A DNA stretch of 38,774 nt, from positions 1 through 38,774 of the forward strand of contig NZ_SIJK02000047.1 in assembly GCF_004762035.2 (NCBI RefSeq), given 5' to 3'. Below are positions 27,093-38,774 of the stretch, piece by piece. Within the stretch, counting starts at the first letter, position 1; each line of letters starts with the position of its first letter. The DNA comes from Candidatus Chloroploca mongolica (lineage in GTDB: Bacteria; Chloroflexota; Chloroflexia; Chloroflexales; Chloroflexaceae). The position numbers and the translations under genes were made by a program. Under the pieces are notes generated by a model that was not told where the DNA came from, searched no databases, and was given only the letters and a program-made list of their open reading frames with translations.

Positions 27093-27143
27093 CCTTTGCG
27101 CCTTTGCGTCTTTGCGTCAAAACAACCGCCTTATGTGCAAGGT
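27093..27143. repeat. Third locus of the 8-mer repeat with the shared 18-mer
   Basis: 27093-27118 is three units of the CTTTGCG(C/T)C type in tandem, i.e. a single arm of the inverted repeats seen at 2256 and 23821. Eight bases later comes CCGCCTTATGTGCAAGGT (27126-27143), identical to 23909-23926. It again lies between two convergent genes. Both neighbours end within about 120 bases. Confidence 0.8.
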
Positions 27144-27158
27144 CTTGGTGCTGGCTCC

Positions 27159-34376: not shown

Positions 34377-34414
34377 CGAGGTTGAGGGCCGTAGGCCCCC
34401 AACTTCGTTACCGC
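34370..34414. terminator. Hairpin overlapping the stop codon of the VWA protein gene
   Basis: 34370-34390 pairs with 34394-34414, 21 positions with one G-T and one A-C mismatch, and loop GTA. The TAA stop (34374-34376) is within the stem. It should terminate or reduce read-through between the paralogous genes. Confidence 0.7.
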
Positions 34415-34452
34415 CTGGCAGAGAGGCCAGCTACGCTGGCCTCTCTGCCAGG
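34414..34452. other. 17-bp perfect hairpin just upstream of the PPC-protein start
   Basis: 34414-34430 pairs exactly with 34436-34452; the loop is CTACG. It ends about 5 bases before the AGGA ribosome binding site of the gene at 34472. The apex GCCAGCTACGCTGGC (34426-34440) is identical to that of the terminator at 5230-5244. It could terminate the upstream transcript, or protect or control the downstream start. Confidence 0.7.
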
Positions 34453-34471
34453 TGAAAAGGAATCATATCCT

Positions 34472-37400
34472 ATGAAGAAATTTCTCCGTATCTGGATCGC
34501 CCTGGGGACGGCGCTCATCGTGGGGTTAGCCCTGCTTCCGATGGCGCTGCCGGGGCCGGTGTACGCCAATCCAATTGACGAAGTTGAGCCCAACAATACC
34601 CGTACGACGGCGCAGCAACTAGGCAGCATCGGTCTCACCAGTCCTGTCAATGCTCAGATTGACGCGCCTGGCGACCAGGACTATTTTGCCTTTACTGCGG
34701 TTGCGGGGCGCACGTATACCGTTGAAGTCTTCAACGTCGCCAATGTCCTGGGTGTGGATGGCCGTGCCTGCGATGGCTACTACTCGCTTTCTGGGCTTGG
34801 CATGTATCTCTACGATCCTTCAGGCAATCAGCTGGGGCGCTCGTGCAATGCCGCCGATGTCTCGTCAGGCAATACGCACAACCGGATGACCTTTACGGCC
34901 AGTGTCAACGGGTTGTTCACGGTGCGAGTGCTTGCCAATAGCACGACGGTTTCCGGCTTTTATGGCTTGCGGGTCTTGCCTCGCTACGGCCAGGACGGGG
35001 CGATGTGGGATGACACAACGTTTGAGCCAAACAACAGCTGGGCCAATGCGTATGCCCTGCCTGCTGGCTATGCAAATGCGCTGACCAGTGATATCGAGGT
35101 GCGCAACGCCGACTATGCGACCTATCGCCCCGATAGTGATTGGTATCGGTTTGAAGCAGTGAGCGGGCGTTCCTATGTCGTTGAACTCTTCGATGTCACG
35201 AGCAGCCTTGGCGCGAGTGGGAGCTTTTGCGATGGCTATTATACTAATGCAGGAGTCGGGTTGCTTGCCTATGATCCGCAACGTACACTGGTGACCCGTG
35301 CGTGCACTCCTAATACGGGAGCCAGTTCGTCCGGCAATGCCCATCACGTGCTTCTGATCAATGCGACAACAACAGGCACCTATTATGTCCAGGTGCAACC
35401 CAATAACGGCAATGCCAGTGGCAGCTATAGCATTCGCCTCTTGCCCCAGCATGGTCAGCCGGATGCCGCCTGGGATGCCACGACCTTCGAGCCGAATAAT
35501 GCCCGGCGGAACGCCTATCCGCTTGAGCCAGGCTATACCAAGGCCCTGACCAGCACAATTGAAGCACGCAACCCGGCGTATGCAACCTTTCAACCTGATA
35601 CTGACTGGTATCGTTTTGAAGCGGTGAATGGGCGCACCTACGTGATCGAGCTCTTTGATGTTGCCACTGGCCTTGGGGGAAGTGGTACTTTCTGCGATGG
35701 CTATTATACCCGCACCGGGCTCAGCCTCGTCATCTACAATGCCCAGGGAACAAGTGTTGCCGGCCAGTGCGAAGCCAACGACCTCGATGTCTCGGCAGGC
35801 AATGTGCATCAGTATGCGCAGGTAACCGCGACCGCCGATGGCACCTACTATATTCGGGTCAAGCCGAATAATGGCACCGCCAGTGGCAATTATAGCCTGC
35901 GCGTCTTGCCAAAGTATGGCGAACCCGGGGCCGCCTGGGATGCTGCGACCCTGGAACCCAATAATTCGATCTGGAATAGCTATCTGTTGAACGAAGGTTT
36001 CACCAACGCGATCAGCAGCCAGATCGAAGGGCGGGGCACCTCGTTCAGTACGTTCTATACCGAGCAGGACTGGTATCGCGTTGAGGTTGCCGCTAGTCAA
36101 ACCTATGTTGTGCAACTCTTTGATGTTGCGCCCGCCCTCGGTGGCAGTGGCACATCATGCGATGGTTATTATACCCGTTCGGGAACATCGGTGCGGGTCT
36201 ATCGTCCCAATGGCACACTTTTTGTCGGAAACTGTGTGGCTACTGGCCCGACCGGCATTGGCAATGTCCATCACCAATTTCAATTTACCGCCGAACAGGA
36301 TGGCATCTACCACCTCCGGGTGCGCCCCAATGGCAACAATGTCGCTGGTACCTACAGCTTGCGGATCTGTGCCAATGAGTGTCGTGCACCGGCCACGCCG
36401 ACGCCAACCCCAACCGAGACGGCGACGCCGACCGAGACGCCAACTGTAACCAATACCCCGACCGACACGGCAACCCCAACCCCAACACACACGCCGGAAC
36501 CGACGGCAACCCCAACCAATACACCGGAACCAACGGCAACCCCAACCAATACACCGGAACCAACGGCAACCCCAACCAATACACCGGAACCAACGGCGAC
36601 TTCGACGCACACGCCGGAACCAACGGCAACGCCAACCAATACACCGGAACCAACGGCGACACCAACTAATACACCAGTACCAACCGCGACACCAACCAAT
36701 ACCCCGGTTCCGACCGACCTCAGGATCGCGTCGCTCACTCCAGGCGAGGGTGTCAACGACCGTGCTACCAGTGTTACCGTGCGTGGCAGTGGCTTCAGTG
36801 CGCCGACAGCGCTGCTGCGGCGGGGCAACGCATCCTTTGCGCTCACTGATGTCAGCGGGGCCGGTGCGACCGTGTTTGCGGCGACGGTTCCGGCGGGCTT
36901 GCCGGCAGGTATCTATGATCTCATCGTCACCAATGCCGATGGCAAGGCCAGCACGTTGCCCAATGCCTTCACGGTGCTCGAACGCAACCCCTTGATCATC
37001 CAGGTCTTGCCGTCGGTTGGCTACAACGATCAGGATGTCGAGTTGACGGTGCTCGGGCTCAATTTTGCCGAGGGTGTGAGTCTGGCGCTTGGCACAACCG
37101 ATCTGGTGACCCGGCGGATCAACGGCACGACGCTTCAGGCGGTCGTTCCGTCCCAGATGCCGGTAGGCACCTATGATCTCACGGCGACCAACCCCAACAA
37201 TGCTCAGACGGCGACGCTGCGCAACGCCTACACCGTGCTCGATGCCGACAGCAATAACGATCTGGTTGGCTACAGTCACGAGTTGTGGGTCAACCCGGTC
37301 AGCCCACGCGCAGGATCGCCCGCCGACATCGGCCTGCTGGTGCATCGCCTCGGTGGCAAAACCGTGCTTCGCGATGTGATCGTTGAGTTCCGGCGCGATG

Positions 37401-38401
37401 CGGTGGATGGCCCGGTGCTGGGGCGCAGCACGGTGCCGTTCCTTGATCCGCCCGATAGCGTCGAGAGCACCGTCCCCCTTGCCGTGACCTTCACGCAGAC
37501 CGGGACGTTTGATCTCTACGCGATCATTGATCCTGACGATCTGATCGCCGAGGACACCGAAACCAACAATGTGGTCAGCCGCACCTTGACGGTGCTCGCG
37601 CCAAGCCCGGATCGCACGGTGCCGGTGGTACAACGCATTGACGTCGAGGGTGGCAACGGTGCCACGCTGCGCGAGCCGCGCGTGCGGGTCGAGGTCGAGG
37701 CGATCGATCCGCCGCCCGATGCGAGTGGCGTGCAAGCGCTGCACGTGATCGAGTATGTCTACAACCTCGGCGCCGGCCAGTGGGTGCCCGTGGTGCAATC
37801 GGGTTGGATGCCCTATAGCGAGACCCCCACTGGCTTCAACTGGACGCTGCTGCCTGTGCCGGGCATGCACTATCTGCAGGTGCGCGCCATTGACCAGGCC
37901 GGCAACATCTCGATTGGCCGTTCGCAACAACTTGCCAACTATCAACCGGATACCGAGCAGATCGGGCGACGCCAGACCCATGTCTACCGGTATCTCGCCG
38001 AAGCCGGCCAGCAACTCACCGCCAACCTGGAGGTCTTGAGTGGCGACGCTGACCTCTATGTCTGGTCATCGCGTGCCGACCAATCGGCGCGGGTGAGCAA
38101 CCTCGAAGGCGATGCCAACGAGCAAGTGATCATCCCAGTCAGCGAGATCGTCCCTGGTGTCTACCAAGTCGAAGTCTACGGCTTCACCGCAGCGCGCTAC
38201 CGGCTCAGCGTTGCGCTCGCTGCGCCAGCCTCAACCCGACTACTGATGCGCACGGAAGGCGGGCTAGCCGAAAGCAAACCGCTGCCGACCGCGCCAGTTG
38301 CGCCTGTCACCAGCCTGCCCGACGAACGCTCGGGCAACGTGCCACCTCCAGTGGTGAGCGCAACCGGCAACAATGTCTACCTACCGCTGATCAGGCGGTA
38401 A
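34472..38401 (+). CDS. Large secreted protein with four PPC-like modules, Pro/Thr linker, TIG, CARDB and PPC domains (1309 aa)
   Basis: The signal peptide is [25 protein letters not shown]. Four modules of about 150 residues follow, each opening with an EPNN segment and carrying a CDGYY motif with a second Cys downstream. They look like bacterial pre-peptidase C-terminal (PPC) domains. A linker of [10 protein letters not shown] repeats (36481-36720) leads into two TIG domains, a CARDB-like domain, an Ig-like segment and a final PPC domain, all paralogous to the preceding VWA protein. The chain ends [10 protein letters not shown]. No catalytic domain is visible, so a structural or adhesive surface role is likely. 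ATG at 34472 has AGGA upstream; the longer frame to 34382 begins inside hairpins. Confidence 0.88.
36481..36720 (+). repeat. Eight 30-bp tandem repeats coding for a [10 protein letters not shown] linker
   Basis: Eight 30-base units start at 36481, 36511, 36541, 36571, 36601, 36631, 36661 and 36691. Each codes for ten residues of the type [10 protein letters not shown]. The units at 36511 and 36541 are identical. Looser Pro/Thr codons extend upstream to about 36395. It joins the PPC modules to the TIG domains. Near-identical units suggest recent slippage, so length may vary between strains. Confidence 0.9.
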
Positions 38402-38431
38402 GCAACGGGTTGTAGGGCGCAAAACCTGATC

Positions 38432-38476
38432 TTGACGCCAACTGAGGCAACGGCACGTTGCCTCAGTTGGCGTCAA
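38432..38476. terminator. Perfect 21-bp hairpin terminator
   Basis: 38432-38452 is the exact reverse complement of 38456-38476, with loop GCA. It begins 31 bases after the stop of the PPC-module protein and begins TTGA and ends TCAA. There is no U-tract. It is the likely 3' end of that message. Confidence 0.8.
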
Positions 38477-38620
38477 ACACAGCATCAACCGACAGAGCCA
38501 GCCCCTCCAGCGAGGCCGACGTAACCGTGGTGCCGCGATGAAAATGGGGAGAATCATAGGCCATCATCCAAGGCTTGATCAGGACAACAACGCGCTGATG
38601 CGCTATCTACCAGCCTCCCC

Positions 38621-38774
38621 GGGCACGGGTCACCGGGGTGCATCGTCTAAACTATGATTGATGTGATTGAATGATGGGTTCTGATGGACTCGGTTGCGAA
38701 TCGGGGTGGGCGCAGCGATGGGCACGGGTCACCGGGGTGCATCGTCTAAACTATGATTGATGTGATTGAATGAT
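38621..38774. repeat. Two copies of a 55-bp repeat, 99-bp period, running off the window
   Basis: 38621-38675 and 38720-38774 are identical over 55 bases, separated by 44 unrelated bases. The second copy meets the window end, so the repeat may be longer and may continue. The repeat starts GGGCACGGGTCACCGGGG and ends with a 9-base quasi-periodic AT-rich part (ATGATTGAT, GTGATTGAA, TGAT). The remaining non-coding stretch 38477-38620 shows no gene or clear structure. Confidence 0.85.

Follow-up and report, generated by a model that had tools for sequence, protein, structure and literature searches.

The window, by which we mean the whole stretch of 38,774 nucleotides analysed, ends in a tandem array that probably represents the relic arms of an element organised like a REP–RAYT system but built around GxxExxY, a nuclease of the PD-(D/E)XK type. 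This reading draws on the anatomy of the array, synteny with a related genome, the repeat family to which the array belongs, the association of that family with the GxxExxY gene, the coupling of repeat word to protein clade and the finding of two cassettes at one site; recognition and cutting of the arms by the nuclease, and movement of the cassette, are what we infer. A repeat-based mobile element was among the suggestions of the first-pass annotation. It has become the best-supported reading through the GxxExxY cassettes, with its mobility kept conditional. Together, the array and the arms suggest a little-known kind of mobile DNA.

Self-comparison of the window found 55 of 55 bases identical between 38621–38675 and 38720–38774, a spacing of 99 bases, in agreement with the two identical copies, 44 bases apart and reaching the window end, that had been described earlier. 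The identity is real, as a chance match of this length is negligible. The 9-base internal quasi-period that had been claimed is likewise present (ATGATTGAT GTGATTGAA TGATGGG). The window ends at the start of a run of 100 Ns (38775–38874), and the contig, C102 of genome G000, runs 226 bases further, to 39000. Positions 62–99 of the unit reappear beyond the Ns at 38875–38912, identical to 38682–38719 over 38 bases, and 33 bases of the next unit follow at 38913–38945 with 94% identity, after which the array is broken by CAATACCTTTCAAATAAG. Because the 44-base "spacer" recurs after the Ns, the true unit is 99 bases long. Counting copies and comparing spacers past the window, as the first-pass annotation had proposed, therefore gave at least three unit starts, the interior of the N gap not being counted, and a conserved spacer; its suggestion that this is the start of a longer tandem array is borne out by these further units and by a sister array on contig C131. 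The features of the array are:

38621–38719, forward strand: complete first 99-base tandem unit, from self-comparison and the post-gap sequence
38720–38774, forward strand: first 55 bases of the second unit, the rest cut by the N gap
38645–38678, forward strand: core arm GTCTAAACTATGATTGATGTGATTGAATGATGGG, member of a cross-phylum GTCTnAAC...GATT family
38744–38774, forward strand: second core arm, truncated by the N gap
38945–39000 of contig C102 in G000 (locus L001): putative MITE-like element end, with CAATACCTTGCAAATAAG ends, that interrupts the array

The array-breaking sequence looks like a MITE that landed within the array. It matches, over 55 bases and at 92.7% identity, the end of an element in genome G001 (L043/L046), which has an inverted partner and spans approximately 188 bases. 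Half-sites of the MITE-like element, with up to two mismatches, number 85 in G000, 67 in G001 and 74 in G002, three genomes of one genus.

A search of the genome for the repeat, also proposed at the outset, found further related copies in two places. At the right end of C131 an 80-base unit is present twice and has only the core (TGTCTTAACCGTGATTGATGTGATTGGTTGATGGGCTATGATG) in common with the window. The third core in G000 is a single one on contig C87, located 2 bases past a stop codon, and in the matching copy in G001 the TAA of GTCTTAA closes the frame itself (both by eye).

G001, which is from the same genus as G000, has a single contig carrying a PPC gene, a whole Uma2 gene (PF05685, E 1.8e-30 in a profile search) and a response-regulator gene (named by eye), in that order. 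Window positions 37615–38537 are 97.4% identical to the left part of this contig, and reversed C131 is 90.7% identical to the right part over 5.5 kb. As C102 and C131 both align to one G001 region, both contig ends border one site. Between the two synteny borders G001 has 531 bases, while G000 has the two arrays with their cores facing, and the Uma2 gene in G000 is reduced to its last 24 codons. Inverted arms on either side of one site are thus seen by synteny, across a join that the assembly leaves unclosed. The features at the left border of the locus are:

34382–38401, forward strand: upstream gene with PPC, MG2 and CARDB domains (profile scan), the left border of the locus
38432–38476, no strand assigned: perfect palindrome with 21-base arms after the upstream gene, also present in G001
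38463–38537, reverse strand: remnant of the Uma2 gene, comprising its last 24 codons and the stop; G001 has the gene intact
38538–38620, no strand assigned: stretch between the left synteny break with G001, where synteny ends at 38537, and the first unit

The PPC/CARDB gene itself includes, at 36477–36707, a 30-base coding tandem repeat of 7.7 copies that encodes a linker of 10-residue repeats.

The GTC-class core, GTCTnAAC-nnTGATT-nnTGTGATT plus further TGAT words, is present at 38645–38678 and belongs to a family found across phyla. An exact search of the genome contig collection with GTCTNAACNRTGATTNNTGTGAT gave at least 117 stretches, against a chance expectation for the core pattern of approximately 4–10 calculated from base composition, and 80 of these stretches were taken as loci, 79 of which had one usable core per locus. 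The matches listed include Bacteroidota, Leptospiraceae, Planctomycetes, Cyanobacteria, Thiotrichaceae, Poribacteria, Chloroflexi and Patescibacteria, which bears out the resemblance, noted in the first-pass annotation, to dispersed intergenic repeats of environmental bacteria. In the 79 listed loci, the free columns of the pattern are also conserved (G at position 5 in 90%, T at position 9 in 96%) and the TGAT words repeat at steps of about 9 bases. A reverse-complement arm was found within 300 nt downstream in 26 of the 79 and upstream in one, compared to 2 of 288 control segments, and a direct copy of the arm lies downstream in nine. At 19 of the 79 listed loci an open frame of 100 codons or more on the strand of the core ends close to the core start, from 12 bases upstream to 8 bases downstream of it, compared to none on the opposite strand and 15 of 780 random positions, and in 8 of 30 rows examined the stop codon lies inside GTCTGA or GTCTAA. 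Tandem core arrays are also found elsewhere among the matches listed, with five cores in L082 and seven in L131. Thirteen stretches with the core were found in IMG/VR contigs, and no GxxExxY relative was confirmed on them. No match at gathering score was found in Rfam for L001, L006, L028 or L085. In the literature searched, which was mostly other than subscription journals, GTCTGAACTGTGATT was not found, a shorter core string was found only in papers with unrelated titles, the six common arm words were absent and broader topic searches gave nothing relevant among the matches listed.

GxxExxY (PDDEXK_3) was the commonest neighbour in both Pfam and NCBIfam, at 5 of the 125 ORFs beside listed cores, a raw tally in which ORFs were picked mechanically and are not gene calls. 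HsdS was the second commonest neighbour of GTC arms, with 4 of 125 in Pfam and 5 of 125 in PADLOC. In four of the five GxxExxY loci (L074, L085, L108 and L110), hsdS (identified with Pfam) is followed by one or more arms, the GxxExxY gene and then a reversed arm. The last codons of hsdS are found on both sides of the GxxExxY cassette in L085 (5430–5960), with 20 of 23 bases alike, as is expected if DNA had inserted into the end of the gene and the end was restored. L232 comes from the same family as the window. The gene upstream of its arm ends in GTC TGA as the stop, after which TTGGTTGATGGGCTATG, the C131 unit in shortened form, leads to a GxxExxY gene of the GTC clade described below; as the contig stops after this gene, only the left side is visible.

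E35, D74, E84, K86, Q98 and Y102 are invariant in all 62 GxxExxY proteins compared, so that, judged by sequence, GxxExxY appears to have the catalytic D and E-x-K residues of PD-(D/E)XK nucleases. The invariant D74, E84, K86, Q98 and Y102 are reminiscent of the RecB/Cas4 branch of these nucleases. A sequence search of the PDB with GxxExxY gave one weak match only (E 0.2), and an AlphaFold model of the L085 protein, made with five sequences, was too poor (mean pLDDT 39.6) and was set aside.

A viral or plasmid vehicle was considered and rejected, as GxxExxY relatives were found in none of 50,697 phage records and in 8 of 72,556 plasmid records. Four of the eight plasmid-borne relatives were inspected, and clear inverted words were seen in one, from Bernardetia (CACAGAG, score 18). 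The Treponema relative had a weak inverted match (11), the one from Fusobacteria only a strong direct repeat (29.5), and the Persicobacter relative nothing clear (inverted 10.5, direct 13). The Pfam neighbours of GxxExxY are spread over 90 families, each found at no more than 3 of 112. Defence genes beside GxxExxY include DpdE (4 of 112), type I methylases (2 of 112) and single DISARM hits. In the parts of the literature that were available, mostly other than subscription journals, GxxExxY is named in passing only and flanking repeats or mobility are not mentioned.

The association was also examined from the side of the gene. Each of the seven GxxExxY loci in G000, G001 and G002 shows repeated words on one side or both (by eye). 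A wider set consisted of 76 GxxExxY loci from the window's phylum, presumably Chloroflexota, made up of 73 of the 97 places found and three from G001 and G002, two short G002 pieces being left out; the 24 unused places were mainly weaker, broken or within long frames. Enough flank was available for 73 of the 76. When the upstream flank was aligned with the reversed downstream flank, these 73 loci had a median score of 19, compared to a median of 9 and a 99th percentile of 19.4 for 730 cross-genome flank pairs, and to a median of 9 and a maximum of 14 for distant flanks of the same loci (n=72). The score was above the cross-locus 99th percentile in 34 of the 73 loci and not above it in 39. The words mostly fit C-R-C-D-R-A-K. 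Pairs of words with 1–4 bases between them were sought by regular expression in flank segments of 205–240 bases and control segments of 205 bases; such a pair occurs in at least one flank in 50 of the 76 loci, compared to 3 of 147 single control segments, and 26 of the 76 were without a strict pair. Upstream pairs were forward in 37 loci and reversed in six, and downstream pairs were reversed in 43 and forward in three. Words of this kind are also found in the window away from the array:

2256–2326, no strand assigned: gene-less inverted pair of words, like the arms of other GxxExxY classes (ACGCAAAGACGCGAAGACGCGAAG / CCTTTGCGCCTTTGCGCCTTTGCGT; ACGCAAAG/ACGCGAAG words)
27094–27118, no strand assigned: single arm of three CTTTGCG words (CTTTGCGT)

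After the single arm, one end of the CAATACC element, which is abundant, lies at 27130–27148 in reverse orientation with two mismatches.

A tree of 62 GxxExxY proteins, one per site and word, was built by a quick method (8 of its 59 inner branches starred) and compared with the word classes. The labels were assigned mostly by eye and before the tree was seen, although the L232 protein had been read by the time L232 was labelled; loci that were unclear or mixed received no label, leaving 56 of the 62 rows with a label. Word class follows the protein tree. The 56 labelled rows, in 15 classes, require 25 changes, and none of 500 shuffles requires fewer than 35 (mean 40.8). Two changes suffice for the GTC class alone, compared to a minimum of five in shuffles, and with the GTC rows removed 23 changes are required against a minimum of 28. 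Labels assigned by regular expression alone (36 rows in ten classes, none of them GTC) gave 18 changes against a minimum of 20 and a mean of 24.8, with none of the 500 shuffles as low. These automatic labels agree with those made by eye in 33 of 35 rows, and their margin is smaller. Seven of the eight GTC-class rows form one clade with an SH-aLRT of 96, which comprises five from Bacteroidota found via the DNA core as well as L213 and L232, found via the protein in the window's phylum; L203, classed as GTC by eye, lies outside it. Joint inheritance of the gene with its arms could yield this coupling without recognition. Four GxxExxY genes are assembled in G000 and none of them is of the GTC class, and the gene cognate to the window arms is either absent from G000 or unassembled.

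Inverted arms are also found around another small gene. Four helix bundle proteins (TIGR02436) are known from intervening sequences of 23S rRNA. A search for their genes that covered 22 of the same genomes was successful in 20, and 28 of 30 loci had enough flank, including L280 and L281, which share arms and were both kept. The flanks of these 28 loci are inverted too, with a median score of 20, compared to 9 for cross pairs (99th percentile 20) and 9.75 for distant flanks (maximum 25.5). Such arms are therefore not peculiar to the GxxExxY nuclease. The words are mostly of period 7 (by eye) and the GxxExxY word pair was found in none of the 28, indicating that the two protein families have different words. 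Loci L279–L308, with words such as TTGGCTA, GTTAGCG, AGTTATC and GATTTTA, make up this second family of small-gene cassettes.

Evidence that bears on movement includes a nuoF/nuoG-like site (L225 and L257–L261) in six genomes of one genus. The flanks are mostly 87–100% identical per 100-base window, the lowest value, 80%, being in the window that holds the boundary. G035, G059, G058 and G029 carry a GxxExxY cassette with CACAGAT words, and G038 and G026 carry another GxxExxY, approximately 62–70% identical in coding windows, with CACGAAT words. Both groups retain a remnant of the other word beside the right arm. The GxxExxY genes in G035 and G058 have an internal stop. More widely, a homologous flank links the loci in each of 13 groups, and more than one word label is present in five of these groups, though one of the five includes two loci from a single genome, which means that the loci of a group do not always represent one site. 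With no more than 40 candidates scored per genome, matches to CACAGAT-class arms numbered 53 in G026, 58 in G029, 14 in G035, 54 in G038, 14 in G058 and 20 in G059, in several cases with both arms at one place. G026 and G038 are rich in CACAGAT arms, yet no classed cassette there has the CACAGAT word, which uncouples gene presence from copy number in these genomes and argues against a simple model.

No clean empty site was found when the region of L183 was tried, where G002 holds another gene. An unrelated gene of approximately 430 codons with no profile identity (L274; G002:C160:14941–16248) lies where G000 has a GxxExxY cassette between two genes, and it indicates that the site takes different cargo. 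Inverted terminal arms, as expected of an IS or MITE, are present, and a target duplication was seen once, in imperfect form (L085, 20 of 23 bases); a scan of the flanks for direct repeats gave mostly the arms themselves.

The history of the window array can be proposed on this basis. The 99-base unit would be a tandem copy of one arm together with approximately 65 bases of neighbouring DNA, the arm coming from a dispersed element family whose arms elsewhere flank a GxxExxY gene or, with no gene, form inverted pairs or tandem arrays or stand singly. In G000 the element would have replaced most of the Uma2 gene, its left arms giving rise to the terminal 99-base array of C102 and its right arms to the terminal 80-base array of C131, and the interior between the arrays, which is not in the assembly, may hold a GxxExxY gene of the GNGFQEVIYQRAL clade as well as a CAATACC MITE. 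The nuclease would recognise arms made of the short word of its own class, cutting there or in a copied strand, after which repair or template exchange would move or replace the cassette, and insertion at gene ends would leave the target gene intact. Copies without a gene would then be non-autonomous relics, and the arrays may have grown by slippage or unequal recombination. A broader proposal, which we regard as possible with the balance slightly against it, is that the quasi-periodic intergenic repeats of environmental bacteria (CACAGAT, CACGAAG, CACAGAG, CTTTGCG, GTCTGAACTGTGATT and others) largely represent an unrecognised class of mobile cassette. Each lineage of this minimal PD-(D/E)XK nuclease would recognise its own word in inverted arms, the code changing with the nuclease, and cassettes would swap at gene-end sites; the unrelated four helix bundle protein would run a parallel system with words of its own and the window array would be a gene-less derivative.

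The simplest alternative is an ordinary minisatellite (VNTR), a 99-base intergenic stretch that was tandemly duplicated by slippage with no element involved, its likeness to other repeats being an accident of low complexity. The head-to-tail identical copies, the post-gap stretch with the spacer conserved as in a tandem unit and the mere handful of cores in G000 would all be accounted for. We nevertheless consider it unlikely, as the core is spread over many phyla and, on the two sides of the site, the cores point towards one another. The independent 80-base array has other flanking letters and only the core in common, and this sharing of a core between different flanks would seem to have weakened the minisatellite explanation already. 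An unusual CRISPR-like array had also been suggested, for which the 55-base repeat and the 44-base interval speak. That suggestion has practically nothing left in its favour and was ruled out, as the interval is itself repeated after the Ns and forms part of the 99-base unit, leaving no unique spacers, and a scan of 13 window ORFs gave no match to a Cas family; the right side ends after 226 bases.

The arms could instead be RNA parts, such as terminators, stability hairpins or guides, that regulate genes, with GxxExxY an incidental cargo or defence gene. Their sense-strand position directly after stop codons and their dyads would suit this, as would the defence genes among the neighbours of GxxExxY and the second place of HsdS beside GTC arms. 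However, the four loci compared with Rfam gave no match at gathering score, the neighbours of GxxExxY, scattered over many Pfam families, bring no single function into prominence, and the coupling of word class to protein clade would require an extra reason, which makes a purely regulatory role improbable. It is very improbable that the arms are REP/BIME-type palindromes mobilised by a RAYT, an HUH tyrosine transposase, even though the architecture is the same: the accessible parts of two papers on REP–RAYT systems describe an enzyme gene between inverted short repeats, co-evolution of repeat and enzyme and a position at gene ends and stop codons (PMC2817692; PMC3733652). At the loci examined, the gene between the arms is GxxExxY with its PD-(D/E)XK-type residues, and the arms are repeated short words rather than a hairpin of 20–40 bases with a GTAG or CGTC tag.

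Short quasi-periodic intergenic repeats are recurrent in environmental genomes and, to our knowledge, have no accepted origin. If the link to GxxExxY that we favour is true, it provides a candidate maker for these repeats and a candidate function for the uncharacterised GxxExxY. The clade-specific words would, in addition, form a natural set of candidate protein–DNA specificity pairs for binding and cutting assays.

Among known systems, CRISPR arrays resemble the window array in regular spacing at first sight, but the window array lacks unique spacers and there is no cas gene among the ORFs scanned. The MITEs of insertion sequences are, like the gene-less copies, short elements with inverted ends, but here no transposase and no regular target duplication were seen and the class words vary between clades. 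Four helix bundle cassettes share the arrangement of a small gene between inverted quasi-periodic arms and differ in the class of their words. By profile, the gene between the arms studied here is a member of the GxxExxY family (TIGR04256)/PDDEXK_3 (PF13366). REP/BIME–RAYT systems (REPtrons and REPINs) differ in their enzyme, as no HUH Y1 transposase gene lies between the repeats at the GTC loci examined, where the gene is GxxExxY, of PD-(D/E)XK type. The arms here also consist of a few copies of short words with short linkers, and one class spans many phyla. In other respects they are alike: as far as the accessible parts of the published accounts go, a REPtron has one enzyme gene flanked by a short repeat in inverted orientation, as well as many gene-less copies, its repeat co-evolves with the enzyme, and repeats at gene ends supply stop codons (PMC2817692; PMC3733652). 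Co-evolution of repeat and enzyme was likewise found here, in the 25 changes against at least 35 and, with automatic labels, the 18 against 20.
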